Shown here: positions 45,014 through 64,000 of the stretch, one piece after another
Layout of the letters: each line of letters begins with the position of its first letter
How positions within the stretch are numbered: position 1 is the first letter of the stretch
NCBI GenBank assembly: GCA_031266805.1
Contig: JAISAH010000015.1
Location: 1 to 64,000 of the forward strand
DNA length: 64,000 bases
Direction: 5' to 3'
DNA from: Gracilibacteraceae bacterium
GTDB taxonomy: Bacteria; Bacillota; Desulfitobacteriia; Desulfitobacteriales; Syntrophobotulaceae
The notes under the pieces: model-generated
Seen by the model: only the letters and a program-made list of their open reading frames with translations
Databases searched by the model: none
What the model was told of the DNA's origin: nothing
Position numbers and translations under genes: made by a program

Positions 45014-45369
45014 TGTGTTTTTGCCGCCTCACATCCGCTCTTACTGTGTTTCTTTGAATTTGCGGCTAAACCGGAAAAACAGCAGGGCGGTTTGTGAATA
45101 TTTGCGCAAATAGCTGAACTCGTCGAATATTGCTGAATGATGTCGCGGGAATAATGTCGAAATCGCCGGGGGAATGTATATTTACTCGCCACATGCGGCG
45201 GGGAAACATCTTAAAAACCGTCGCGTCCGGCATGTCGAATGAAAAAACTTACATACAAGTCAGTGCTTTCAATATTTTTCGACACAGAAAAAATAACTTT
45301 ATCGGAGAAATTGCTTTTTTGCCGGGTTCTGTGTTACAATTAGATCAGCAATTTCATGGAGGTATCAGT
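45014..45369. other. Intergenic region before the hydrogenase operon
   Basis: About 350 bases between the divergent rapZ promoter and hydrogenase start. It holds a perfect 14-bp palindrome TATTTGCGCAAATA (45099-45112), several GTCGAA/GTCGAAT motifs, and a promoter (TTGCTT 45311-45316, 18-base spacer, TACAAT 45335-45340). I see no convincing gene. The frame open from 45130 into the hydrogenase gene lacks a ribosome site and does not look like protein. Confidence 0.55.
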
Positions 45370-46998
45370 ATGGCAAGTAAAGACGGGCTCGCTCATAAAT
45401 TGAACCGGCGCTCTTTCCTGAAACTGGTTGGAGGCGCGGGCGCTCTGGGAGCGACGCTGGGAATGGCCGGATGCGGTGAAACAGTTTCCTCCGACCGGGC
45501 TGCCGGGGCGGGGGGCTGGATGCCGAGTCAGTACAACGTGCCGGCCGGCTGGCCGGTGCAGGTGCGCGGCCGCGTGGCTATCGCGCCGGATAACCCGTCC
45601 ATCACCCGGGATAATGAAAAATGCATACTTTGCGGACAGTGCGTTGAAGTTTGCAAGAATGTCCAAAGCGTGTTCGACAATTATGAACTGCCGTTCAAAG
45701 AGGAGATCATATGTATCCATTGCGGGCAATGTACGCACTGGTGCCCGTCCGGGGCCATCACGGAAGTGGATGAGACGGAAAAAGTGCTCAGAGCTATAAG
45801 CGACCCGGATAAATTTGTCGTCGTCCAGATGGCGCCGTCCACCCGCGTCGGCCTTGGCGAAGAATTCGGCTTTCCCGTCGGCCTGAACGTGGAGAGACTG
45901 CAATACGCCGCTTTGTATAAATTGGGCTTTGACGCCGTATTTGACACGAATTTTTCCGCTGACCTCACGATCATGGAGGAAGGTTCGGAGCTTGTGCGCC
46001 GCGTGCTGGGCGAGAACGAGCATGACGGGCATGAAAACAATACGCTGCCGCAGTTCACGTCCTGCTGCCCGGGCTGGGTGAAATTTGTGGAGTATTACTA
46101 TCCGGATCTGATCGAGCATCTTTCTTCGGCTAAATCTCCCCAGCAGATGACGGGACCGCTTTATAAAACTTACTATGCCGAAATCAACGGGATCGATCCG
46201 CGGAAGATTTTTTCCGTTTCGATAATGCCTTGCACGGCGAAAAAATTTGAGGCGGCGCGGCCGGAGATGAACTCGGCCAGCCGGCTAAAAGGCGACCCCG
46301 ATATTTCGCCCGACGTGGACGTCGTGCTGACGGTGCGCGAACTGGCGCGCCTGATCAAAAGCCGGGGCATAAATTTCAATGAGCTGACTGAAGTCGATTG
46401 CGATAAAATCATGGGGGAATACACGGGCGCCGGCGCCATATTCGGCGCGACGGGCGGCGTGATGGAGGCGGCCGTGCGTTCCGCTTATTATTTGGTCACC
46501 GGGGAGCAACCGCCGCCCGGCTTATGGGAACTTACGGCCGTGCGCGGGCTTGACGGCGTCAAGGAAGCGGCGGTCAATATTCCCGGCGCCGGGGAAATAA
46601 GAGTCTGCGTCGTGTCCGGCTTGGCCAACGCCCGGGCGGTGATGGACAAAGTGCGGGCCGGCGACCGCTCATATGCTTTTATCGAGGTCATGGCCTGCCC
46701 GAGCGGCTGCCAGTACGGCGGCGGCCAGCCCCGCTCTTCCTCGCCGCCCAGTGATGAAGTGCGGACCGGGCGCACGGCGGCGCTGTATCAGATCGACCGG
46801 GAAGCCAAGTTGCGCAACAGCCACGACAACCCGGCCATCATCGCCCTGTACGATAATTATCTGGAGAGACCGGGCAGTGAGCTGGCGGAGTTTTTGCTGC
46901 ATACGTCGTATACTTCCCGGGCGGATAAATTGACTGCGAAAAGAATACAGGAACCTACTTTGATTGTGCAAAGAACACAGGAACCTACTTTGATTTAA
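45370..46998 (+). CDS. Exported [FeFe]-hydrogenase catalytic subunit
   Basis: 542 residues. A twin-arginine signal (LNRRSFLKLVGG) runs into a lipobox-like GMAGC, so it is probably exported folded and may be lipid-anchored. Two [4Fe-4S] motifs (CILCGQCVEVCK and CIHCGQCTHWCP) precede the H-cluster domain: TSCCPGW, MPCTAKKFEAAR and EVMACPSGCQYGGGQP are the three signature loops. It oxidises or makes hydrogen on the outer face. GGAGGT lies six bases before the ATG at 45370. The C-terminus carries a tandem repeat. Maturases HydEFG are not in the window. Confidence 0.93.
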   Translation: MASKDGLAHKLNRRSFLKLVGGAGALGATLGMAGCGETVSSDRAAGAGGWMPSQYNVPAGWPVQVRGRVAIAPDNPSITRDNEKCILCGQCVEVCKNVQSVFDNYELPFKEEIICIHCGQCTHWCPSGAITEVDETEKVLRAISDPDKFVVVQMAPSTRVGLGEEFGFPVGLNVERLQYAALYKLGFDAVFDTNFSADLTIMEEGSELVRRVLGENEHDGHENNTLPQFTSCCPGWVKFVEYYYPDLIEHLSSAKSPQQMTGPLYKTYYAEINGIDPRKIFSVSIMPCTAKKFEAARPEMNSASRLKGDPDISPDVDVVLTVRELARLIKSRGINFNELTEVDCDKIMGEYTGAGAIFGATGGVMEAAVRSAYYLVTGEQPPPGLWELTAVRGLDGVKEAAVNIPGAGEIRVCVVSGLANARAVMDKVRAGDRSYAFIEVMACPSGCQYGGGQPRSSSPPSDEVRTGRTAALYQIDREAKLRNSHDNPAIIALYDNYLERPGSELAEFLLHTSYTSRADKLTAKRIQEPTLIVQRTQEPTLI

Positions 46999-47000
46999 GG
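46941..47000 (+). repeat. Tandem 30-bp repeat at the 3' end of the hydrogenase gene
   Basis: Bases 46941-46970 and 46971-47000 are near-identical: both contain ACAGGAACCTACTTTGATT. The protein therefore ends with two copies of QEPTLI (RIQEPTLI, then RTQEPTLI), and the second copy contains the stop codon. Confidence 0.85.
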
Positions 47001-47012
47001 AGGCGCCAAAAT

Positions 47013-47813
47013 ATGGCAAATGAACTGACCGCGGGCAAAACATTCGGCGCGCTCGTGGATATACCGCGCTGTATCGGCTGCGAAAGCTGCAGCGTAGCCT
47101 GTAAGTTGTACAACGGTCTCGACTGGGAGGCCGAACGCAAACAGCTGACGCCGGCAGACAGGGCGGCTGAGGCGAATAAGGGCCTCTGGCCGGAAGACTG
47201 GACGTCCATCACGCAATATAACCCGGAAAAAGACGGGGAGCGCACCCTCCGGTTTGTCAAAAACCAATGTTTTCATTGCGACGACCCGGCCTGCGTCTCA
47301 GCCTGTTTTTCCAAGGCTTTCCAAAAAATGCCGGAAGGGCCCGTGATTTACGATCAGAGCCTTTGCGTCGGCTGCCGTTATTGTATGCTGGCCTGTCCGT
47401 TTGACATCATCAAATATGAATGGGGCAAAGCTATCCCCGGCTGCCGCAAATGTCAGATGTGCGCGCCCCGTGTCGCTCAGGGCGAAGCGCCGGCCTGCGT
47501 TTCCGTCTGTCCGACAGGCGCTCTGTTTTACGGGGAGAAAGATCAGGTGCTTGAGGAGGCGAAAAGACGGATCGCCGAGAACGGGTATATCGACCATGTG
47601 TTCGGCGAACGGGAAGCCGGCGGTACAAGCTGGTTTTATATATCCGACGTTCCGTTTGCGGCGATGCGTTTCCGCACGGACGTGACGACGAGAGCACTGC
47701 CTTCTTACACGAAATCGTATATGGCCGCGACTCCCGTCGTGGGGATCGGTTGGGCCGCCGTGCTGGCCGGCCTTTATATTTACAATAATAAAGGGAAAGA
47801 CCATCTTGATTAA
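47013..47813 (+). CDS. HybA/DmsB-like polyferredoxin subunit of hydrogenase
   Basis: 266 residues. Four Cys motifs are visible: CIGCESCSVACK, CFHCDDPACVSAC, CVGCRYCMLACPF and CRKCQMCAPRVAQGEAPACVSVCP, which together bind four [4Fe-4S] clusters. A C-terminal membrane helix (VVGIGWAAVLAGLYIYNN) resembles HybA. It probably carries electrons between the hydrogenase and the membrane subunit that follows. No signal peptide of its own is visible, so it may be exported with the catalytic subunit. AAGGAGG precedes the ATG. Confidence 0.9.
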   Translation: MANELTAGKTFGALVDIPRCIGCESCSVACKLYNGLDWEAERKQLTPADRAAEANKGLWPEDWTSITQYNPEKDGERTLRFVKNQCFHCDDPACVSACFSKAFQKMPEGPVIYDQSLCVGCRYCMLACPFDIIKYEWGKAIPGCRKCQMCAPRVAQGEAPACVSVCPTGALFYGEKDQVLEEAKRRIAENGYIDHVFGEREAGGTSWFYISDVPFAAMRFRTDVTTRALPSYTKSYMAATPVVGIGWAAVLAGLYIYNNKGKDHLD

Positions 47814-47838
47814 ACAGTAAAAAGGAGGGATGTTTTTT

Positions 47839-49011
47839 ATGGAGACCGTTCGCAAAAGATGGACTTTCAAAATGACGCCGGTACGCGGGATATTCATCCT
47901 CGTCGCCCTGTGCGCTCTTGCCATCATAGTTGTACGCCTCATACTCGGATTGGGCGCGACTACGAACCTGAATGACCAATGGCCGTGGGGCTTCTGGATC
48001 TCGTTCGACGTGCTGATCGGCGTGGCCCTGGCCGGCGGCGGCTACGGGGTGGCGCTCATTGTTTATGTATTGCGCCGCGACAAGTTTTACCCGATCGCGC
48101 GCAGCGCCATGCTCACCTCGCTGCTGGGCTACGTCATCGTCGTCCTGGGCCTCCTGATAGAAGTGGGACAGTGGTTCAATTTTTATGAGCCGTTTATTTC
48201 CTGGGGGCATCACAGCGTGCTTTTCGAGGTTTTTTGGTGCATATCCATGTACACGCTGATCCAAGTGCTGGAATTCGGCGAGATCGCGACGGAAAAAGTT
48301 TTCAAAGGCGCGCATAAACTGCTCAAGCGGATAATGCCGGTGTTGCTCGTCGTCGGCATCACCTTGCCGACCTTGCACCAGTCGTCGCTGGGCGGGCTGT
48401 ACTACGAGATGATCGGCAAACTGGATCCGCTCTGGTGGTCGCCCTTGCTGCCGCCGTTCTTTCTCGTCTCGTCTTTCTTTGTCGGGCCGGCGATGATCGT
48501 GCTGGAAACGGCGCTGGCGCAAAAAGCGACGAATCATGTGGTCCCCGTCCCCATACTCAAAGGTCTCGTCAAAATTTCCGCCGTCGCGATGCTGATATAT
48601 TTCATCGCCAAGATCGGCGATCTGTTCGTGGCGGGAGAGATCGGCAATGCTTTTGCCGGCACGTTCGCCAGCAATATGTTTTTGCTGGAGCTCGGCATAG
48701 GCTGCGCCGTGCCGCTCCTGCTGTTTTTCGCCGGCGCCTGCGCCAAACGCGGCGGGCTGATATTATACGGACTCTGCGCGGTGGCCGGCGTGGTCATGAA
48801 CCGCTTCAACGTGGTGCTGACCGGCATGGGCGAATATCTGAACCGGGCGGGCGGGCAGTATTTCCCCTCCTGGATGGAATTCGTCGTCAGCGCCGGGCTC
48901 GTCAGCATCGCCTGTCTGATCTACCTTTTTGCGGTGGAAAATTTCAATATCACCGGCGGCCCTAAACATGAAGAAAACGCGCCGCAGAGTGGGAAATTCG
49001 CAGCGGAATGA
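47839..49011 (+). CDS. HybB/NrfD-like quinone-reactive membrane subunit
   Basis: 390 residues with nine or ten membrane helices. The pattern NDQWPWGFWISFDVLIGVALAGGGY and later HQSSLGGLYYEMIGKLDPLWWSP fits the NrfD/PsrC/HybB family, which exchanges electrons with menaquinone without heme. With the two genes before it, it forms a three-subunit membrane hydrogenase. The ATG at 47839 has GGAGG at ten bases. Its stop overlaps the next ATPase start. Confidence 0.9.
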   Translation: METVRKRWTFKMTPVRGIFILVALCALAIIVVRLILGLGATTNLNDQWPWGFWISFDVLIGVALAGGGYGVALIVYVLRRDKFYPIARSAMLTSLLGYVIVVLGLLIEVGQWFNFYEPFISWGHHSVLFEVFWCISMYTLIQVLEFGEIATEKVFKGAHKLLKRIMPVLLVVGITLPTLHQSSLGGLYYEMIGKLDPLWWSPLLPPFFLVSSFFVGPAMIVLETALAQKATNHVVPVPILKGLVKISAVAMLIYFIAKIGDLFVAGEIGNAFAGTFASNMFLLELGIGCAVPLLLFFAGACAKRGGLILYGLCAVAGVVMNRFNVVLTGMGEYLNRAGGQYFPSWMEFVVSAGLVSIACLIYLFAVENFNITGGPKHEENAPQSGKFAAE

Positions 49012-54172: not shown

Positions 54173-54259
54173 GGAGAGGTGGCCGAGTGGCTTAAGGCGG
54201 TGGTCTTGAAAACCATTTGGGGATTCCCCACGCAGGTTCGACTCCTGTCCTCTCCGCCA
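54173..54259 (+). tRNA. tRNA-Ser (anticodon TGA)
   Basis: Acceptor arms GGAGAGG and CCTCTCC pair fully; a long variable arm (TGGGG/CCCCA), the anticodon loop with TGA, and the T-arm CAGGTTCGACTCCTG are present. The variable arm is a class II feature, as expected for serine. CCA is encoded. It reads UCA codons. Confidence 0.93.
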
Positions 54260-54401: not shown

Positions 54402-54644
54402 GCGCGGGCGCGATCTGACGGCGACAGCCGTTACAAGATTGATCCGCGCTTCTTTTAGGGATGGCGGCGAATGATTTTAGGGCGGTGCCGGAGCTGGCAC
54501 GAAAATTGCTGTATAGAATAGGACAGCCCGGATACCGGAATAAAAAACACACGGAAAGGAGGGCAGCGTCCATCCGCGATTCGCGAAACTGAATATGGTA
54601 GTTTAGTTTTACACGGTTCCCAAGTAAAAGGGAGGCAAAAAATC
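54402..54644 (+). other. Leader region of the corrinoid methyltransferase operon
   Basis: About 240 bases between the terminator and the transporter start, with no convincing gene. Short hairpins can be drawn (GTGCC 54485-54489 with GGCAC 54496-54500; CGCG-ATT-CGCG nearer the start codon). I found no match to the cobalamin, SAM or glycine riboswitch motifs I know. A promoter must lie here, but no clear -35/-10 pair was seen. It may hold an RNA regulatory element. Confidence 0.35.
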
Positions 54645-55931
54645 ATGAGCAATGAGAACCAACAGACTGCTATTCCGTCGCCGCCGATCCCCAAAAACAT
54701 TCTTGAGTATGTGCGCAACATAGGTCCGGGTTTTATCTTTCTGCTTTCCATTCTCGGCGTAGGCGATCTGACCGGCGCTTCGGTCAACGGCTCCAAATTC
54801 GGCTACGCCATCATCTGGACTTTGCTTTTAGCGGTAATCGCCCGGTTTATGGTGGTTGAGGCCATCGGCCGCTTCGGGCTGTGTAACCCGGAAAAACTCT
54901 CGCCGATTCAGGCGCTCGTGAAGTTATACGGCAAATGGTTCCGGGTTCTGATCGCGATTTTTGTCGTCTGTTTCTTCTTCACGAACATGTCGGCTTATGT
55001 CAAAGGCTGCGCGGAGATCCTCAACGCGATGTTTCCTTTCATGCCGGTTTCCGCTTGGGGACTCGTGACTATCGCTTTCGGTATTTTTTGTGTTTATTCG
55101 CCTACCTACAAGTTTATTGAAAAAATGTTCAAGGGCCTGATGGTCGTGGTGTTCCTCACCATCGTGGCCGCGGCCGTCATCGTGCAGCCGGATTGGGGCG
55201 CCTTCTTCAAAGGCATGTTCATCCCCAGCATCCCGCCCGGCGTGCCAGATCTGCGCGCCACGATGTTTGTGGTGGTCGGGGCGATCGGTACGGTCATCGG
55301 CGGCGTCGGCCAGCTGATGTATCCCTACTTCATTAAGCAAAAAGGCTGGAACGCTCCGTCCTATATTAAGATGGTCCGTTTCGATCTGGCTTTCACCGTT
55401 CTCTTTTTGTTCCTGATCGACAGTCTGCTCTACATCCCGGCCGTGACTCTGATCCATGAGCAAGAAGGCGCGGTCATCCAGACCGCGATGGATATTTTCA
55501 ACATGATGCATATGGCTATCGGCGCGGCGGCGACTTTTGTATTCATGATCGGGATCTTCGGCGCGGCGATAACCTCCGTCGTCGGTATGCCCTACGGCGT
55601 TTTGCATGTTTTTCAGGAAGCCGTCATCGGCCGCGTCGATCAGAAACACTTGACATGGAAAATCGGCGCCACCGTCGGCTGGATCCCGCCCGCAATCGCC
55701 GTGTTCACGAACATCCCTTTTACGACTATTTCTCTGCTCGGCGGCAATATCAACCTGTTTTTCAGCCTGTTCGTCGGCACCGGTATTCTGATCATCGGCA
55801 ACAAGAAATCTATGATCGGCGAGAAATACCGAAATCCCTGGTGGTCCAATCTGGGTTTGGGGGTGGCCTTTGCCTGCCTCTGGTATCTGATGGGCATGCG
55901 GCTCATTGAACTGGTTCAGTCCTTCCTCTAG
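54645..55931 (+). CDS. NRAMP-family-like transporter with altered metal-binding motifs
   Basis: 428 residues with about 11 membrane helices. The overall NRAMP plan is visible, starting IGPGFIFLLSILGVGDLTGA. The first-helix DPGN metal motif of NRAMP transporters is replaced by GVGDLTGA, and the MPH of helix 6 by MYPYFIKQ within VGAIGTVIGGVGQLMYPYF. Both changes remove the Mn/Fe ligands, so it probably does not carry the usual metals. NRAMP shares the LeuT/APC fold, so transport of an organic substrate for the genes downstream is possible (inference). GGGAGG precedes the ATG. Confidence 0.8.
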   Translation: MSNENQQTAIPSPPIPKNILEYVRNIGPGFIFLLSILGVGDLTGASVNGSKFGYAIIWTLLLAVIARFMVVEAIGRFGLCNPEKLSPIQALVKLYGKWFRVLIAIFVVCFFFTNMSAYVKGCAEILNAMFPFMPVSAWGLVTIAFGIFCVYSPTYKFIEKMFKGLMVVVFLTIVAAAVIVQPDWGAFFKGMFIPSIPPGVPDLRATMFVVVGAIGTVIGGVGQLMYPYFIKQKGWNAPSYIKMVRFDLAFTVLFLFLIDSLLYIPAVTLIHEQEGAVIQTAMDIFNMMHMAIGAAATFVFMIGIFGAAITSVVGMPYGVLHVFQEAVIGRVDQKHLTWKIGATVGWIPPAIAVFTNIPFTTISLLGGNINLFFSLFVGTGILIIGNKKSMIGEKYRNPWWSNLGLGVAFACLWYLMGMRLIELVQSFL

Positions 55932-55963
55932 TTTCCCGGGAACCCTTATTGACAGGACGTCAG

Positions 55964-57127
55964 ATGGATTTTTTCGGTAAATATTTGGCCGCGGCGGCGG
56001 GTTTGCCCCGGACCGCGGCCGGCGAGACAATTGAAATAACGGTCGATCTTATGCTGGCGCACGACGGGTCCGGGGCCGCGCTGCTTGAAGCCTGGGAGAA
56101 CCGGAGGGCGAAAATGTATGATCCGCGGCGTCTGCTGATCACCGTGGATCACGCCTTTCCGGCGCCGACCCCGGAGGAGCGCCGTATTCATCGCGGTCTG
56201 GCCGATTTTGCCCAAAGGTACGGCTGCGCGCTGTATAACCACGGCGAGGGAGTCTTGCATCAGGTGGCGGAGGAAAAGGCCGCCCTGCGGCCGGGGATGA
56301 TCATCGCGGGCGCGGACGGTCATGTGGCCACTGCCGGCGCGCGGGGCGCGCTGGCTTTTTCTCTGACGCCGGCAGAATTCGCCTTGGTGCTGCAAACCGG
56401 CAGACTAAAACTGACCGTGCCGGAGGTGCTGACGATTGAGCTGACCGGCGCTTTTCGGCCTGATGTGTCAGTCCGGGACGCCGCGCTGGTGGTGATGCGG
56501 GATTTGGCCGGTGTCATAGCGGGCAAGGCGGCGGCGTTCACCGGGTCTCTGGCGGCGGCTATGTCTCTGTCCGACCGGATGGCGTTATGCAATATCATAC
56601 CGGAGAGCGGCGCGGCGACGGCTTTCGTTGTGCCGGCGGATGAGGACGCCGGCCGGAGCCATTATGTTATTGATGTCGGCGGGATTGAGGCGATGCTGGC
56701 CGCACCGCCGGCGCCGACCAATATCCGCCCGGTGCGCGAACTGAGAGGAACCCCGGTCAGCGTGGCCGTGGCCGGCGGCTGTTCGGCCGGACGGCTCAGC
56801 GATATGGAAATAATTGCCAATATTTTGCGGGTACACCCCGTACACCGGGATGTGACTTTTATTATCGCGCCGGCTTCCCGGACCGTCGCCAACGGTATGG
56901 ACGCCAAAGGCTGGAGCTCTCTGCTGCGAGCAAGAGGAGCGCTGGTTTTACCGCCGGGCTGTGGCCCCTGTCCGGGTAAACATTCGGGTTTGCTGGCGCC
57001 GGGCGACAGCGCGGTCACGACCACGGTCAGGAACACTCCCGGCCGCATGGGCGCGGCGGACGCCGATATTTATCTGGCTTCCCCTTACACCGTAGCGAAA
57101 GCCGCGGTCAAGGGGTTCATAGGCTAA
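55964..57127 (+). CDS. Aconitase/3-isopropylmalate dehydratase large-subunit-like protein
   Basis: 387 residues. The three Fe-S cysteines are there: VAGGCSAGRLSDM and LPPGCGPCPGKHSG. MIIAGADGHVATAGARGALAF replaces the usual G-D-S-H motif with D-G-H. The end NTPGRMGAADADIYLASPYTVAKAAVKGFIG is typical of LeuC-type proteins. It should dehydrate or isomerise a hydroxy acid. The matching small subunit (LeuD type) is not in the window. The ATG at 55964 has AGGA six bases upstream; a TTG at 55949 is a less likely start. Confidence 0.82.
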   Translation: MDFFGKYLAAAAGLPRTAAGETIEITVDLMLAHDGSGAALLEAWENRRAKMYDPRRLLITVDHAFPAPTPEERRIHRGLADFAQRYGCALYNHGEGVLHQVAEEKAALRPGMIIAGADGHVATAGARGALAFSLTPAEFALVLQTGRLKLTVPEVLTIELTGAFRPDVSVRDAALVVMRDLAGVIAGKAAAFTGSLAAAMSLSDRMALCNIIPESGAATAFVVPADEDAGRSHYVIDVGGIEAMLAAPPAPTNIRPVRELRGTPVSVAVAGGCSAGRLSDMEIIANILRVHPVHRDVTFIIAPASRTVANGMDAKGWSSLLRARGALVLPPGCGPCPGKHSGLLAPGDSAVTTTVRNTPGRMGAADADIYLASPYTVAKAAVKGFIG

Positions 57128-57148
57128 TGACAAAAGGAGAGTTTGAGC

Positions 57149-57775
57149 ATGAGCATTCAGACAGTATACGACGCTGTACTCGAGTTTAATAACAGCAGTA
57201 TCGTGGCGGAAATCAAACGGGCCATGGCTGAGGGGGCGGACGCGGGCGCGGTTTTGGCCGACGGCCTGATTAAAGCTATGGACGAGGTAGGTCAGCGCTA
57301 TGCCCGCGGCGAGTTTTTCGTGCCGGAAATGCTGTCGGCGGCCCGCACGATGAAAACCGGGCTGGATTATCTGAAGCCGCATCTGGCCGAAGCCCAATCG
57401 GAAAAAGAAGGCACGATTGTTATCGGCACGGTCAAAGGCGATTTGCATGATATCGGGAAAAATCTGGTGGCGATCATGCTGGAAGGAGGCGGATTTGAGG
57501 TCGTCGATATCGGCGTGGACGCCGAAACGGCAAAATTCGTGACGGCCATTCAGGAACAAAATGCCGACATCGTCTGTTTATCCGCGCTGCTGACCACTAC
57601 GATGGGGGCGATGCAAAAATCCGTGCAGGAGATCAAAACCCAGTGCCCGCGGGTCTGGGTCATGGTGGGCGGCGCGCCGGTCACTCAGGAGTTTGCCGAT
57701 AAAATAGGGGCCAACGGCTACAGCGGAGACGCCGCCGGAGCGGTGGTGAAAGCCCGTGAATTGCTGGCCGGATAA
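57149..57775 (+). CDS. Corrinoid protein of a methyltransferase system (MttC/MtbC-like)
   Basis: 208 residues. An N-terminal helical cap (AKRAMAEGADAGAVLADGLIKAMDEVG-like) is followed by the B12-binding Rossmann domain with the cobalt-ligand motif GTVKGDLHDIGKNLVAIML, then LSALLTTTM and MVGGAPVTQEFADKIGANGYS. It carries the methyl group on its corrinoid between two methyltransferases. The ATG at 57149 is chosen by AAAGGAG about nine bases upstream. It lies directly before its methyl acceptor-transfer partner. Confidence 0.93.
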   Translation: MSIQTVYDAVLEFNNSSIVAEIKRAMAEGADAGAVLADGLIKAMDEVGQRYARGEFFVPEMLSAARTMKTGLDYLKPHLAEAQSEKEGTIVIGTVKGDLHDIGKNLVAIMLEGGGFEVVDIGVDAETAKFVTAIQEQNADIVCLSALLTTTMGAMQKSVQEIKTQCPRVWVMVGGAPVTQEFADKIGANGYSGDAAGAVVKARELLAG

Positions 57776-57808
57776 ATCGCGGCGCGCAGCCGGAAGGAGG
57801 ACGACGTT

Positions 57809-58612
57809 TTGATAATCGTCGGCGAGTTGATCAACGCCAGCCGCAAACCAATCGCGGAGGCTATCCGCAATCAGGACAGCGAATACGTTAAAAAAATTGC
57901 CCGGGAGGAAAGCGAGGCCGGCGCCGGTTATATCGACGTTAACGCCGGCATTTTTGTCGGTCAGGAAACAGAGTACGTGAAATGGCTGATCACGAATATC
58001 CAGTCGGTCGTCGACACGCCCTGCTCGATAGACAGTCCGGATCCCCAAGTGATCACGGCGGCGCTGTCCGTCCACCGGGGAACCGCGATGATCAACTCCA
58101 TTTCCCTGGAAAAAGAGCGTTACGACAGGCTCATGCCGGTTATCGCCCATACGGATCTGAAAGTGATCGCTTTATGTATGAGTGACGACGGAATGCCGGA
58201 GACGGCGGACGACAGACTGCGAAACGCGGATAAACTGGTTACCGGTTTGACGAGAAACGGGATACCCGTCGGGAATATTTTCATTGATCCTCTGGTGCAG
58301 CCGGTGGCGACAAATACCACATACGCCGTGGAATTTCTCGACGCCGTCGAAAGGATAATGACCGGCTATCCAGGTATTCACACGATTTGCGGGCTTTCCA
58401 ACGTCTCCTACGGTCTGCCGGTCCGCAAATTCATCAACCATATCTTTGCCGTGCTGGCCATCGGAAAAGGGCTGGACGCGCTGATCGTCAATCCTTTGGA
58501 CGCGATGATGAACGCCAGTCTGACGACCGCCGAGACTTTGACCGGCCGGGATGATTTTTGCGCCGATTACCTCCAAGCCTACCGCAAGGGTAAATTTGAG
58601 TTTTTGAATTAA
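57809..58612 (+). CDS. Methyltetrahydrofolate:corrinoid methyltransferase (MtrH/AcsE-like)
   Basis: 267 residues, TTG start after GGAGG. The pterin-binding barrel shows IIVGELINASRKPI at the start, GAGYIDVNAG, SIDSPDPQVITAAL and GLSNVSYGLP. This family moves a methyl group between a corrinoid protein and tetrahydrofolate. With the corrinoid gene before and the UroD-like gene after, it forms a three-component system. In a catabolic role the methyl would go to tetrahydrofolate for the Wood-Ljungdahl pathway (inference). Confidence 0.92.
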   Translation: MIIVGELINASRKPIAEAIRNQDSEYVKKIAREESEAGAGYIDVNAGIFVGQETEYVKWLITNIQSVVDTPCSIDSPDPQVITAALSVHRGTAMINSISLEKERYDRLMPVIAHTDLKVIALCMSDDGMPETADDRLRNADKLVTGLTRNGIPVGNIFIDPLVQPVATNTTYAVEFLDAVERIMTGYPGIHTICGLSNVSYGLPVRKFINHIFAVLAIGKGLDALIVNPLDAMMNASLTTAETLTGRDDFCADYLQAYRKGKFEFLN

Positions 58613-58623
58613 AGAAAGGATGG

Positions 58624-59769
58624 ATGAAAATCATGAATTCCAGAGAACGTGTTTTAGCGGCTATCGCGCACAAAGAGGCTGACAGGGTGCCTGTCGATTT
58701 CGGCGGCTCTCTGGCGACCAGCCTGCACACGCAAGGCTACGCCAAACTGAAAAAATATCTGAACATGAATCTCGACAAAGAGATCAAAGTAGCTCGCGGC
58801 CGTGCCCAATTGGCGGCGATCGACTATGACTTGCAGGACACGTTGGGCGTGGATTGCCGGATGCTGCTGGTCAAAGCGCCGGACGGCTGGATCAATTCCG
58901 ACGACCACAGCGACATCCTTGTCGATGAGTTTGGGATGGAGTGGAAAAAATATGAGGATATTGGCAGCTATGAAACTGTCAGCTCGCCTTTATTTGGCCC
59001 GGAAGTGACGGTGGAAACCGTTAAAAACATGAAATGGCCCGATCCCGGCGATACGAGTTTTCTGGCGGGCGCCCGGGAGAAAGCGGAACAGATCAGAAAG
59101 AGTACCGATAAAGCCATCATCGCCAATCTGGCCTTGCAGATCAACACCCAGAGCAATAAGCTGCGCGGGTTTGAGGATTATCTGGCTGATATGATCGGCA
59201 ACCCGGCGCTGATCGAATCTATCATGGACAGGGTCACGGAACTGTATATCGAACGGGCCAAAGCCATTCTGAAAGAGGTCGGGGATTTTGTGGACATCGT
59301 CTATGTCGGCGACGATCTGGGCACCCAGATAGGGCCGATGTTTTCCCTGAACACTTACCGCAAACTGTTAAAACCCCGGCAAAAGAAATTGTTCGAAGTG
59401 ATCAAGAGCGCCGCCGACGTGAAAATTTTCTATCATTCCTGCGGGGCCTGCTCTGTTTTTATCGACGATCTGGCGGAAATCGGCATTGACATCCTCAATC
59501 CGGTGCAGGTCTCGGCGGCCGGGATGGATACAAAGGAGCTGAAGAAAAAATACGGCGATAAAGTTTGTTTCTGGGGCGCCGTGGACACGCAGCGGGTGCT
59601 GCCTTTCGGTACGGTGGCCGAAGTGAAAGACGAGGTAAAACGGCGGATCGAAGATCTGGCCCCGGGCGGCGGTTATGTCTGCGCTTCCGTGCATAATCTG
59701 CGCCCGGAAGTGCCGCCGGAAAACATCCTAGCGATGATTGAGGCCGCCAAGGAATACGGGGTATATTGA
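58624..59769 (+). CDS. Uroporphyrinogen-decarboxylase-family methyltransferase (MtaA/CmuA-like)
   Basis: 381 residues. The UroD fold is evident (ERVLAAIAHKEADRVPVDFGG, GDDLGTQIGPMFSLNTYRKLLKP), with the His-x-Cys zinc ligand in FYHSCGACSVFIDDLAEIG and a third candidate Cys in GGGYVCASVHNL. These members act as methyltransferases, taking methyl from an O-, N-, S- or halogen-bound donor or giving it to a thiol, with a corrinoid protein as partner. The donor here is unknown. Haem synthesis is unlikely given the neighbours and the zinc motif. Confidence 0.87.
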   Translation: MKIMNSRERVLAAIAHKEADRVPVDFGGSLATSLHTQGYAKLKKYLNMNLDKEIKVARGRAQLAAIDYDLQDTLGVDCRMLLVKAPDGWINSDDHSDILVDEFGMEWKKYEDIGSYETVSSPLFGPEVTVETVKNMKWPDPGDTSFLAGAREKAEQIRKSTDKAIIANLALQINTQSNKLRGFEDYLADMIGNPALIESIMDRVTELYIERAKAILKEVGDFVDIVYVGDDLGTQIGPMFSLNTYRKLLKPRQKKLFEVIKSAADVKIFYHSCGACSVFIDDLAEIGIDILNPVQVSAAGMDTKELKKKYGDKVCFWGAVDTQRVLPFGTVAEVKDEVKRRIEDLAPGGGYVCASVHNLRPEVPPENILAMIEAAKEYGVY

Positions 59770-59770
59770 A

Positions 59771-60052
59771 ATGGCTTTCAAATCCGTCCCTGTCGTGCCC
59801 GCGGGTGAAGCCGGCGCTCTGGCCGCGGTGGCCGATAACAGAAACCAGCGTCTCCGCCGTCCGGAAATCAGCGATCAGACGCAAATTGATCCGCTGACGC
59901 CGCTGTATTGCCCGGACGGGGCTATAGCGCTGACGGCGGGCCGGTACGCGATCAGCGAGCGTCTGTGCAAAGGCTGCGGCATCTGCGCCCAGGAAAGTCC
60001 GGGTATTCGGATGGTCCCGGAATACACCGGACCGCGGGGAATTTTGAACTAG
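59771..60052 (+). CDS. 2-oxoacid:ferredoxin oxidoreductase delta-like subunit, single-cluster
   Basis: 93 residues from the ATG at 59771, directly after the UroD-like gene. A usual delta subunit has two [4Fe-4S] motifs. Here the first motif retains only its last Cys (LYCPDGAIAL) and the second only its first three (LCKGCGICAQESPG, with Ser where the last Cys would be). In 2[4Fe-4S] ferredoxins these four residues bind the same cluster, so one whole cluster is kept and the other is lost. It is followed by the alpha, beta and gamma genes. Confidence 0.8.
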   Translation: MAFKSVPVVPAGEAGALAAVADNRNQRLRRPEISDQTQIDPLTPLYCPDGAIALTAGRYAISERLCKGCGICAQESPGIRMVPEYTGPRGILN

Positions 60053-60075
60053 TGAAGGAAGTAGAGTAGAAATCC

Positions 60076-61251
60076 ATGAGCAAACTGTTTATCACCGGCA
60101 GTGAAGCAGCCGCGCTGGGGGCAAAATTGGCCCGGATCGAAGTGCTGGCTTATTACCCGATAACGCCGGCCTTCCCCGCCATGGAACGTTTGAGTAAATA
60201 TATAGAGGACGGCGAATTAAACGCCCGTTTTATCCGGGCGGAGTCGGATCACAGCGCTCTGGCCGCCGTTCTGGGGGGCAGTCTGGCCGGCGCCCGCTGT
60301 TATACTGTAACCAATTCGCAGGGATTATTGCTCATGACGGAAGTGGTATATCATACGGCGGGATTGAGACAGCCTGTAGTCATGGGCGTAGCTAATCGGG
60401 CCCTCTCGGCGCCGCACAGCCGTTTTCCCGAACACGGCGACGCCGTCTCGCAGGACGCCAGCGGCTGGATCCAGCTCTTTTGCGAAAACAATCAGGATGT
60501 TCTCGACAACACCATTCAGGCTTTCCGTCTGGCCGAAGAACTTCGTACGCCGGTCATGGTCAACTATGAAGGCTATATACAATCCCATACTTTGGAAGAA
60601 GTGGCCGCGCCGGATCAGGCGGGAGCGGACGCTTTCCTTCCGCTCGTCCGCCGGCCGGCTTTGGACGTCGAGCGGCCGCAAGGAGTCAATACCGTGACCA
60701 GCCCGGAGTTCTACCCCAGCTATAAATACAGTCAGAACGAAGCGGCGCTGAAGGCCCTGACCTTAATCCCCGCTATAGCCGCCGCTTATAACCGCTCTTT
60801 CGCCGCCGCCAGCTGCGGGCTCCTGGAGGCTTACCGGATGGAAGAGGCGGAACACGCCGTGGTGGCGATGGGTTCCGTCGTGGCGACCTCCCGGATCCTT
60901 GTGGATGAGCTGAGAAAACAGGGGAAAAAGATCGGTCTCATCAAGGTCCAAACCTGGCGGCCGTTCCCGGCGGAGGCATTGCTGCGGCTTTTGCAAAATG
61001 TCCGCTATACGACGGTCTTGGATAAAAACATCATCTTCGGTGTCGGCGGCGCTCTGGCCAATGATTTGAAAGCGGCGGCCTACGGCCGTCTGCACACGGT
61101 CATAAACGGAGCGATCCTCGGGTTGGGCGGCAGCCCCTGCGGCGCGCGGGAGATCAAAGAAGCCCTGGAGCAAACGGAAAAGAGCGAAGGCGGCGGGAAC
61201 CGATCCGTCTGGATCGGTTCGGATCCGCCCGCGGGAGGGACGAAGCGATGA
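60076..61251 (+). CDS. 2-oxoacid:ferredoxin oxidoreductase alpha subunit
   Basis: 391 residues of the POR/VOR alpha type. ITGSEAAALGAKLARIEVLAYYPITPAFP is the N-terminal pyrimidine-binding part, followed by RAESDHSALAAVLGGSLAGAR and a C-terminal domain II with EEAEHAVVAMGSVVATSRI. It makes up the catalytic heterodimer with beta. The substrate could be pyruvate, another 2-oxo acid or an unusual one; the sequence does not tell. The stop overlaps the beta start. Confidence 0.92.
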   Translation: MSKLFITGSEAAALGAKLARIEVLAYYPITPAFPAMERLSKYIEDGELNARFIRAESDHSALAAVLGGSLAGARCYTVTNSQGLLLMTEVVYHTAGLRQPVVMGVANRALSAPHSRFPEHGDAVSQDASGWIQLFCENNQDVLDNTIQAFRLAEELRTPVMVNYEGYIQSHTLEEVAAPDQAGADAFLPLVRRPALDVERPQGVNTVTSPEFYPSYKYSQNEAALKALTLIPAIAAAYNRSFAAASCGLLEAYRMEEAEHAVVAMGSVVATSRILVDELRKQGKKIGLIKVQTWRPFPAEALLRLLQNVRYTTVLDKNIIFGVGGALANDLKAAAYGRLHTVINGAILGLGGSPCGAREIKEALEQTEKSEGGGNRSVWIGSDPPAGGTKR

Positions 61252-62111
61252 CGGATTCAGCGAATACGGCGGAGGAACTGTTCGGGCAGGGCCACGCCGG
61301 CTGCAAAGGGTGCGGCGCGGCGATCGCCGGCCGGCAGGCGATGGCGGCTTTGGGCCGGCGCACGATCATTACGGTCCCGGCTTCCTGCATGGCGACTTTA
61401 GGCGGCGGCAACACCCAAACGACTTGGCGGACGCCGTTTTATCATACGCTGTTTGAGTGCGCGCCGGCCGTGGCTTCGGGTATTCGGGCCGCGCTGGATA
61501 TCCAAGGCGTCAAAGATGTCAATGTGGTGTCCTGGGGCGGCGACGCGGGCAGCGCGGATATCGGGTTTCAATCTTTGACCGGCGCGGCCGAGCGGCAGGA
61601 ACATATGATCCATGTGCTCTATGATAATGAGATGTACATGAATACCGGCGGGCAAACCGGCAGCCAGACGCCGCTGTACGCGATCACCACGAACGGCGCT
61701 TTGGGGAAAAAAGTCCGCAAGAAAAATATGCCGGCTATCATGGAAGCCCATGGGATCGATTATGTCGCCAGCGCTAATATTGCTTTTCCGGCGGATCTGA
61801 TAGCGAAATTTCAAAAAGCCGCCGCCAAAGAAGGGTTTTCCTATATCCACATCCTGGCGCCATGCCATCGCGGCTGGGGGATCAAGCCCGACCAGACCGT
61901 GGATATTGCCCGCCGGGCTACGGAATGTGGTCTGTGGGAATTATATGAACTGGATCAGGGGCGGAGGACCCGCACTTATGAGCCGGGGCTGACTCCGGTA
62001 GCCGATTATTTGCGGGCGCAGGGCCGTTTCCGCAATCTCACGGACGCGGAGACCGCCGAGTATCAGGCTTATGTAGACGCACATTACGGCGGATGGGGTG
62101 GAAAAAATTGA
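61248..62111 (+). CDS. 2-oxoacid:ferredoxin oxidoreductase beta subunit
   Basis: 287 residues. The thiamine diphosphate site is VVSWGGDAGSADIGFQSL with DNEMYMNTGGQTG further on. Cluster cysteines begin at HAGCKGCGAAIAG. The C-terminal part (GFSYIHILAPCHRGWGIKPD) is typical of POR beta. With alpha it oxidises a 2-oxo acid to an acyl-CoA and reduces ferredoxin. It overlaps alpha and gamma at both ends. Confidence 0.93.
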   Translation: MTDSANTAEELFGQGHAGCKGCGAAIAGRQAMAALGRRTIITVPASCMATLGGGNTQTTWRTPFYHTLFECAPAVASGIRAALDIQGVKDVNVVSWGGDAGSADIGFQSLTGAAERQEHMIHVLYDNEMYMNTGGQTGSQTPLYAITTNGALGKKVRKKNMPAIMEAHGIDYVASANIAFPADLIAKFQKAAAKEGFSYIHILAPCHRGWGIKPDQTVDIARRATECGLWELYELDQGRRTRTYEPGLTPVADYLRAQGRFRNLTDAETAEYQAYVDAHYGGWGGKN

Positions 62112-62527
62112 CAGAAATAAGATTTTGGGGTCGCTATGGGCAGCCGGTCGGCCAAATCGTCAGGACGCTGGGAGAGGCTCTGCTGGCGGAAGGCCGGCAT
62201 GTCCAAGCATTTGGCAGTTTCGGCGCTTTTCGCAATGACGCTCCCATGTATGCCGTTTTGCGCGTCGCCGCGACGGTCGTCAGAGAACGCTCCGCGCCTG
62301 ACAGTACGTCCGACGCGGCAATGGTGCTGGATAACAGCCTGTTTTCGGTGATGGATGTGACCGGCGGTTTGCGCCGAGGAGGAACAGTGCTGGCTTTGGG
62401 CGTGAAGCAGGATATCCTGGGAGAAAAAGCGAATATGTTTAAGTTCATTCAACTGGAACTGGATCCCCGGCGGCCCGGATGGGAGGGAGATCTGCTCCAA
62501 ACCTTAAAAACTCGGGGAATCATATGA
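62108..62527 (+). CDS. 2-oxoacid:ferredoxin oxidoreductase gamma subunit, short
   Basis: 139 residues from the TTG at 62108, which overlaps the beta stop; a longer frame begins at ATG 62093. It starts LTEIRFWGRYGQPVGQIVRTLGEALLAEG, the usual gamma motif (RxxGQ), but ends at about 140 residues when 180 or so is common. Asp-rich AMVLDNSLFSVMDV and HxD-type features of this small subunit are present. It provides the CoA-binding arm of the enzyme in the known families. Confidence 0.85.
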   Translation: MTEIRFWGRYGQPVGQIVRTLGEALLAEGRHVQAFGSFGAFRNDAPMYAVLRVAATVVRERSAPDSTSDAAMVLDNSLFSVMDVTGGLRRGGTVLALGVKQDILGEKANMFKFIQLELDPRRPGWEGDLLQTLKTRGII

Positions 62528-62530
62528 GGT

Positions 62531-63298
62531 ATGGCAGTGGCGTGGCCTGAGATAATCGCGTTTATATTATTGGGTATGTTTGGGAATTTCATCGGCACCT
62601 TGGCCGGCGGCGGCGGTTTGATCACCCTGCCGGCCATGTTGCTTTTAGGGGTGCCGGTCCATGTCGGCATCGGCGTCAATAAATTCTCCGGCATCATCGC
62701 CGGGTCCTCCAATATTTGGCGGCTGGTGCTGGGACATCGCATCGCTCTGTCCAATTTTATATTTATCGTCGCCGGCGGCATTCTCAGCGGCGCGGCCGGC
62801 GCCGCGATCACCACTAATCTGCCGGCCGCTCTGCTTGATTATCTGGTCATGGTCCTTTTGGTATTCGCCCTGACTGTTTCCGTGATCCCGACTCGGCGCC
62901 CGCCCGCGGATGCCGAGGAAATCACGCAGGAGCGTTTCAGCCGCGGGATGAAAGCGATGTCCTGCGGCGTCGGCGCTTATAACGGCATATTCGGCCCCGG
63001 CGCCGCGACGCTGGCCATCATGATCTTCATGCGCCGGGGTTTTTCCTATGTCGACGCGGTCCACCACGCCCGCCTGCTGGTCATGTCCAGCAGCGCCGGG
63101 GCTTTTGTTTTGTTTTTGCAGCACGGCTTCATAAACTGGGCCTACGCTATCCCGCTGACCATTGGCTCCTGCATCGGCGCTCAGCTGGCCTTTATCGTAC
63201 TGCCGCATATCTCGCAGAAGGCCGCGAAAATAGGGCTCATCATCATCTGCTCGCTGCTGATCATCCAGACGGCCATAGGTCTCATCAACAATCAATAG
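62531..63298 (+). CDS. TauE/SafE-family membrane permease
   Basis: 255 residues with about eight membrane helices in two repeats; GGGGLITLPAMLLLGVPVHVGIGVNKFSG is the family hallmark and FGPGAATLAIMIFMRRG starts the second half. Members move sulfonates, sulfite or other organic anions, mostly outward. The ATG at 62531 is close to GAGG; the GTG at 62537 has better spacing (seven bases) and may be the true start. It is the last gene of the operon and converges on the TRAP permease gene. Confidence 0.88.
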   Translation: MAVAWPEIIAFILLGMFGNFIGTLAGGGGLITLPAMLLLGVPVHVGIGVNKFSGIIAGSSNIWRLVLGHRIALSNFIFIVAGGILSGAAGAAITTNLPAALLDYLVMVLLVFALTVSVIPTRRPPADAEEITQERFSRGMKAMSCGVGAYNGIFGPGAATLAIMIFMRRGFSYVDAVHHARLLVMSSSAGAFVLFLQHGFINWAYAIPLTIGSCIGAQLAFIVLPHISQKAAKIGLIIICSLLIIQTAIGLINNQ

Positions 63299-63304
63299 AA
63301 TAGA

Positions 63305-64000
63305 CTACATGATGTGGCTTGGCAGCCAGGTGATGATTTCCGGCAGCATACAGAGGATGATGATTGCGACGACCTGCAGGAGCAGGAAGGGGATCGAGGC
63401 CATATAGATCTCGCCAATGGGGATGTTTTCCTTGGCCACGCCTTTGACATAGAAAGCGGCGTAGGCAAAGGGCGGCGACAGATAAGACATCTGGATCAGC
63501 ACCGCGAATATGATGGCAAACCACAGCGGGTCAAAACCGAGAGCGTAGACGACCGGCGTGAAGATCGGGATACCGATCAGGAGGACGCCGTAGGAATCAA
63601 TGAACATGCCCATAATGACGACGATCACGCAGATCACGCTGAAGAGCATCCAGCGGTTGACGTCGAGAGACACGAGAAAGTCGTTGATCACCTGATTGCC
63701 GCCCAGACCGAGGAAAACCGCCGTGAACAGCGAAGCGGCCATGATGATCCACATGATCATCGTGTGGGTCAGAAAAGTGTTATACAGTGATTCTTGCAGC
63801 ATTTTCCAGTTGAATTTGCCGTACATCAGGGCGATGGCCGCGGAGCCCACAACGCCTAAGGCGGCGGCTTCCGTAGGCGTGGCGACGCCCAGCATGATGG
63901 AGCCCAGGACGAGGAAGATCAAAATGGCGGTGGGCAGTAAAGACTTGACGACCAGTTTGGCTTTCATCGCGGACGTGTAGACGCTCAGTTCTTCCTGCGT
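63305..64000 (-). CDS. TRAP transporter large permease, C-terminal part (runs off right edge)
   Basis: The frame is open from the window end down to the stop at 63305; about 231 codons are visible. The pieces PTAILIFLVLGSIMLGVATPTEAAALGVVG, HTMIMWIIMAASLF and LIGIPIFTPVVYALGFDPLWFAII match the second half of DctM/YiaN-type subunits. An ATG at 63967 is internal, since coding-like sequence (TQEELSVYTSA) continues upstream of it. TRAP systems import carboxylates or sulfonates with a binding protein. The small permease and binding protein lie outside. Confidence 0.85.
   Translation of the reverse strand, partial: TQEELSVYTSAMKAKLVVKSLLPTAILIFLVLGSIMLGVATPTEAAALGVVGSAAIALMYGKFNWKMLQESLYNTFLTHTMIMWIIMAASLFTAVFLGLGGNQVINDFLVSLDVNRWMLFSVICVIVVIMGMFIDSYGVLLIGIPIFTPVVYALGFDPLWFAIIFAVLIQMSYLSPPFAYAAFYVKGVAKENIPIGEIYMASIPFLLLQVVAIIILCMLPEIITWLPSHIM

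Follow-up and report, generated by a model that had tools for sequence, protein, structure and literature searches.

A predicted sigma-54 operon joining a putative corrinoid-dependent O-demethylase to a conserved 2-oxoacid:ferredoxin oxidoreductase and an orphan aconitase-like protein in a Gracilibacteraceae bacterium

For acetogens, methoxylated compounds are an important source of carbon, though to our knowledge the demethylases described so far leave the remainder of the substrate molecule untouched. O-demethylase and Cdm systems share a three-part layout of a first methyltransferase (MT I), a corrinoid protein and a second methyltransferase (MT II) (PMC13222342). Here we analyse an operon of ten consecutive plus-strand open reading frames (ORFs; 54645–63298) within a 64,000-nucleotide stretch of the genome of an uncultured, acetate-producing Gracilibacteraceae bacterium (GCA_031266805.1, contig JAISAH010000015.1, positions 1 to 64,000), referred to below as the window. 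The operon is real and unusual: a demethylase of this known kind is joined to an oxidation unit that is conserved elsewhere but of which we found no description. That unit, termed the module below, consists of a four-subunit 2-oxoacid:ferredoxin oxidoreductase (OR) and an aconitase-like protein (ACN), and the orphan aconitase family is its most surprising component.

The ORFs, their intergenic spacing (−19 to +33 nt) and the Pfam and NCBIfam assignments all agree with the ten genes and families named in an initial annotation made from the sequence alone, which overlooked a sigma-54 promoter at 54495–54510, the sole exact match to the consensus in the window. Tentatively, and at somewhat less than an even chance, we read the locus as an operon under sigma-54 control that serves the catabolism of an O-methylated carboxylic acid. 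A permease would import the methoxy-acid, the UroD-superfamily protein would move the substrate methyl to Co(I) of the corrinoid protein, and the MtrH-like protein would hand it to tetrahydrofolate and on to the Wood–Ljungdahl pathway, whose carbon monoxide dehydrogenase (CODH) and acetyl-CoA synthase are encoded nearby. The demethylated acid would either be a 2-oxoacid already or be converted by an unlinked enzyme, and OR would then split the 2-oxoacid to CO2, acyl-CoA and reduced ferredoxin. If this is true, one organism could use both parts of the molecule, the methyl being removed and the remaining acid oxidised with formation of reduced ferredoxin.

We looked for this arrangement in 83 genomes of the family, order and class, in 399 genomes spread over the phylum and, by pattern, in 84,980 species genomes. 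No second instance of the complete ten-gene order was found among them, so that as far as searched it is peculiar to one genome. Conservation of the gene order, to which the initial annotation had looked for support, was thus found in part: OR and ACN are kept together as a unit in Desulfitobacteriales-like genomes and other anaerobes, the named carriers being Desulfosporosinus, Moorella, Thermanaeromonas, Gracilibacter, metagenome-assembled genomes (MAGs) of Peptococcaceae and Candidatus Acetocimmeria. Module loci in genome contigs were retrieved with an alignment of OR beta, a scan with the single ACN protein giving no match. The usual order is a PrpR-type sigma-54 activator, OR delta-alpha-beta-gamma, a permease (MatC- or GntP-type, with TRAP, MFS or TctA at some loci) and ACN, often followed by GlcD and GlcF; among the 22 OR-subfamily loci of this genome-contig set with a readable alpha subunit, none has a methyltransferase triad nearby. 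In the window operon the corrinoid/MtrH/UroD triad and two transporters occupy the place of the module's permease and GlcDF. Elsewhere GlcD and GlcF probably make the 2-oxoacid from a 2-hydroxyacid, and here demethylation would be another way into this oxidation module. At Moorella-family loci (L146–L150, L169–L172) NuoE/NuoF- and formate-dehydrogenase-like genes adjoin the unit. In Moorella thermoacetica the unit is probably Moth_0033–0035, an identity taken from locus order rather than sequence, and these appear among spore proteins (PMC8745062); the literature yielded no functional description of the gene combination, of methoxyacetate in acetogens or of the Moorella loci.

Methyl transfer to folate, as first proposed, is borne out by the gene content of the triad and by the MtrH-like protein, which scores 328 bits against NF005719 (cut-off 259). 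The UroD protein is distant from anything solved (about 20% identity to MtbA); the top fold match of its model (pLDDT 93) is MtbA (4ay7), with UroD folds also matched. In the alignment its zinc site is His-Cys-His compared with His-Cys-Cys in MtbA, the third ligand having changed from Cys to His. His-Cys-Cys is the zinc site of S-methyltransferases, while O-methyltransferases have one or both cysteines replaced (PMC10418091). Because the S-type ligand set is absent, O-demethylation is favoured, and the protein is putatively an O-demethylase with an ether donor. A separate candidate, an S-methyl substrate of the methylthiopropionate type, is weakened by the same His-Cys-His site. Relatives of this protein (36–42% identity) adjoin sugar-type ABC importers, LacI/ROK regulators and one FGGY kinase, neighbours that point to methylated sugars or acids.

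All four OR subunits are homologous to PorABCD, and the best NCBIfam models are pyruvate synthase subunits, each scoring below its curated cut-off (for alpha against PorA_Arch, 376 bits with a cut-off of 550). Throughout the subfamily the substrate loop of alpha reads H[SCT]RFP[ED] (e.g. HSRFPEHG) with Arg116 invariant, whereas pyruvate synthases carry an INIW-type, INIWNDH-like loop. Arg116 aligns with Ile123 of pyruvate:ferredoxin oxidoreductase (PFOR) and Phe117 of oxalate oxidoreductase, residues of known structural role, and we infer a 2-oxoacid that would bear a second anionic or polar group. A separate single-chain NifJ-type PFOR is encoded on contig C1 by an open frame of 1187 aa; this enzyme, the sub-cut-off scores and the Arg116 loop all argue that OR is not the cell's ordinary pyruvate enzyme, in keeping with the initial annotation, and its proposed oxidation to an acyl-CoA remains plausible. 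In the clade of the window (also L037, L073 and L074) exactly the four cysteines of one [4Fe-4S] cluster of OR delta are gone; OR delta of Moorella and Desulfosporosinus retains both clusters.

The ACN model (pLDDT 91) has the three-domain large-subunit fold, with a TM-score of 0.92 to the homoaconitase large subunit, and all three [4Fe-4S] cluster cysteines and several catalytic residues are kept. Its substrate motifs are DGHV, GGCSA and VRN in place of the standard DSHT, GSCTN and NRN, and this is a property of the family: all 34 module ACNs carry DGH and GGC[SAG][AS], with [VI][RK]N wherever the C-terminus is present (some sequences are cut there), whereas each of the 25 ordinary relatives has DSH together with GSC[TS]N, and their third motif is nearly always NRN (one TRN, two unreadable). 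Neither the operon nor the surroundings of any module ACN examined contain a swivel domain or small subunit, and each of the five small domains in the genome is paired with its own large partner. The catalytic base of aconitase, Ser642, and two arginines belong to this domain, and because it is missing ordinary hydro-lyase activity is unlikely; the dehydration originally assigned to ACN is not supported, for this reason and for the changed motifs. ACN is probably an accessory Fe-S protein of the module, with a chemistry other than that of aconitase. Its nearest ordinary relatives (~40% identity) are DmdA-like and come from nicotinate-type clusters. Within the same taxonomic order, fermentation clusters of this type that include DmdAB-like genes were seen at L040 and L077–L080 (G007 and Desulfosporosinus-group genomes), and three of them end in a lone MtrH-like gene, 65–69% identical to that of the window, which pointed to no function.

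About 18 of 20 module loci have a -24/-12 element of this type ~50–200 nt ahead of their OR genes (in one it is farther off and one locus is without), against a chance expectation that we estimate at ~0.0015 elements per 200 nt on one strand with uniform base composition. No linked activator was seen beside the window operon, despite its promoter. A full-length orthologue of the module activator (60–64% identity) is nonetheless encoded on contig C31 of the same genome, directly behind a second activator that is 58–63% identical to those accompanying triads of another kind elsewhere, namely the kind found in a second, convergent demethylase operon immediately downstream of the window operon, which has its own sigma-54 promoter. 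By these orthologies the two convergent operons, both on contig C113, match the two adjacent activators (C31, L250, 160–3843). The genome thus holds both parts of a predicted sigma-54 regulon, the promoter and a cognate activator gene.

Several points weigh against a single pathway. The substrates of the TauE and NRAMP-like proteins are guesses, and a close GlcDF orthologue was not found in the genome (best 38%). OR occurs without ACN in a Nitrospiraceae MAG and a few others (L157, L166), so ACN is not essential to it. The link between triad and OR comes from a single MAG, and the two could be regulated together while serving unrelated substrates. An alternative that we regard as possible, though on the unlikely side, is that one promoter drives two independent functions: the triad would demethylate one compound and OR/ACN would oxidise another acid, both feeding methyl, CO2 and ferredoxin to the Wood–Ljungdahl pathway. 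The OR/ACN unit is found without the triad and triads without OR/ACN, the gene order is rearranged, and G+C varies from 0.53 to 0.64 among the operon genes. The window also takes a different position in the ACN tree from that in the OR tree: in approximately unbiased (AU) tests a grouping of the window OR with Desulfosporosinus is rejected (p 0.0003), but a grouping of the window ACN with the neighbours of OR is not (p 0.117). The uneven G+C and the trees are suggestive of a mosaic origin, with the ACN test not significant. However, the triad sits between the ACN and OR genes and the usual permease and GlcDF are gone, which looks like replacement rather than simple adjacency.

The individual assignments can be questioned in the same way. 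ACN might work as an ordinary DmdA/LeuC-like hydro-lyase, recruiting a small subunit from another locus and adding water to the substrate or removing it, which its retained cysteines and catalytic residues, its match to homoaconitase and its DmdA-like relatives would allow; we think this doubtful given the strict division of motifs between module and ordinary proteins and the want of any free small domain. Four-subunit PorABCD-type enzymes are reversible and the best models of OR are pyruvate synthases, if below cut-off, so that it could serve mainly as a biosynthetic 2-oxoacid synthase running from acyl-CoA, CO2 and reduced ferredoxin; there is a slim chance of this at most, the constant partners of OR (importer, sigma-54 activator and often GlcDF) making a catabolic setting and its substrate loop being unlike that of every PorA-type protein seen. 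The methyl donor, finally, might be a thioether, sulfonate-linked, amine or halomethyl compound in place of a methyl ether, as the UroD superfamily also holds S-methyltransferases and haloalkane dehalogenases (PMC10418091, PMC13222342), the best models of the corrinoid protein are MtgC/MtbC and a TauE-type permease is present. The histidine as third zinc ligand and the sugar-type surroundings of the UroD relatives render such a donor improbable.

Beyond the catabolic operon itself lies a broader proposal, which we offer as conceivable rather than probable: that DGH-type ACN is a repurposed aconitase fold which, without a swivel partner, serves a new class of 2-oxoacid:ferredoxin oxidoreductase as its dedicated Fe-S partner. 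The two would form a so far undescribed pathway by which acetogens and sulfate reducers oxidise acids, joined here to corrinoid demethylation for methoxylated hydroxy- or oxo-acids. The OR/ACN unit defines a sharp and testable pathway in cultivable Desulfosporosinus and Moorella, and presents a relative of aconitase that has lost both its partner and its substrate motifs.

The features are collected in Table 1. The start of ACN is most likely the ATG at 55964, compared with an ORF listed from 55949, and that of OR delta most likely the ATG at 59771, compared with 59738; with the latter start, OR delta does not overlap the UroD gene. A tRNA-Ser gene, a common integration site, lies upstream of the operon at 54173–54259.

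Table 1. Promoter and genes of the operon in window coordinates.
Feature	Coordinates	Strand	Basis and remarks
Sigma-54 (-24/-12) promoter TGGCACGAAAATTGCT	54495..54510	+	Exact TGGCACN5TTGCW; 135 nt before gene 1
NRAMP-fold permease without metal-binding motifs	54645..55931	+	Pfam Nramp
ACN, orphan aconitase/IPMI large-subunit fold, DGHV/GGC/VRN variant	55964..57127	+	Pfam Aconitase; NCBIfam IPMI/homoaconitase large-subunit type
Corrinoid protein	57143..57775	+	Pfam B12-binding, B12-binding_2; NCBIfam MtgC/MtbC-like below cut-offs
MtrH/AcsE-like methyl-H4folate:corrinoid methyltransferase (MT II)	57809..58612	+	Pfam Pterin_bind; NF005719
UroD-superfamily methyltransferase (MT I), putative O-demethylase	58624..59769	+	Pfam URO-D
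OR delta, ferredoxin-like, PorD-like, one [4Fe-4S] cluster lost	59771..60052	+	Pfam/NCBIfam; four cysteines lost
OR alpha, PorA-like, Arg116 in substrate loop	60076..61251	+	NCBIfam; alignments
OR beta, PorB-like, TPP-binding	61248..62111	+	Pfam/NCBIfam
OR gamma, PorC-like, short form	62093..62527	+	Pfam/NCBIfam; start possibly TTG 62108
TauE/SafE-type permease, putative organic anion transport or export	62531..63298	+	Pfam TauE

In the NRAMP-like protein the DPGN and MPH metal motifs are replaced (alignment to the solved NRAMP 10ky), and it is probably an importer of an organic substrate rather than a metal carrier. An orthologue in another genome (74% identity) has genes for a LacI regulator and an FAD oxidoreductase as its neighbours. 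A more distant relative (29%) is found at L243 (1222–5821), where a corrinoid protein and two methyltransferases of MtmB type are encoded in the same cluster, which hints at a family of NRAMP-like carriers of organic substrates. None of the other fetched loci encodes a close relative of the TauE protein.

The genome is 3.38 Mb in size and 95% complete, and the window sits on contig C113. The convergent operon downstream (MtrH-corrinoid-UroD-DctPQM) extends from 63305–64000 of the window to about 69162 on the contig, and similar gene sets occur at L129–L132. The TRAP permease at 63305 is the last gene of this separate operon and so stands outside the ten-gene one. A sulfonated substrate, initially suggested by this permease and by TauE, is thereby disfavoured, TauE being a loose family name only and the UroD zinc site not being His-Cys-Cys. 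Behind the second operon lie a DUF1638 gene, a RACE-like corrinoid activator, CODH and acetyl-CoA synthase. The putative activator (L116:12289–14211; 2Fe-2S/RACE-like) was assigned by reading the sequence. With these genes on the same contig, and from what is known of their families, methyl-folate could enter the Wood–Ljungdahl pathway. Elsewhere in the window (45130–49011) an iron-hydrogenase-like protein with a Tat-type leader, a 4Fe-4S protein and a membrane subunit, read from the ORFs, apparently form a respiratory-type complex. Contig C50 (25024–36572, L043) holds a cluster for another, unassigned organic-acid pathway, in which PrpD-like and PrpF-like genes accompany a LeuCD-like pair and an AcnX-like pair that is apparently split.

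Compared with described systems, the triad resembles the O-demethylase and Cdm systems of acetogens (Odm, Vdm, Mtv, CdmBCA) in its UroD-family MT I, small corrinoid protein and methyl-H4folate MT II, here with a RACE-type activator on the same contig, but unlike them it shares an operon-like run with a 2-oxoacid oxidoreductase and an aconitase-like protein. Archaeal-type PorABCD and the Moorella oxalate oxidoreductase are homologous to OR in alpha, beta, gamma and delta (E-values to 1e-112), though OR differs in falling below the curated cut-offs, in having Arg for Ile123 or Phe117, in its short gamma and, in the clade of the window, in its single-cluster delta. ACN shares its fold and three cluster cysteines with the large subunits of DmdAB and of homoaconitase and isopropylmalate (IPM) isomerase; unlike these it lacks a small subunit and shows family-wide changes in three substrate motifs. 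The unit of Moorella, Thermanaeromonas and Desulfosporosinus has the same OR subunit order, loop Arg, DGH-type ACN and sigma-54 control, whereas those loci carry a permease, often GlcDF, and a linked activator where the window operon carries a methyltransferase triad.

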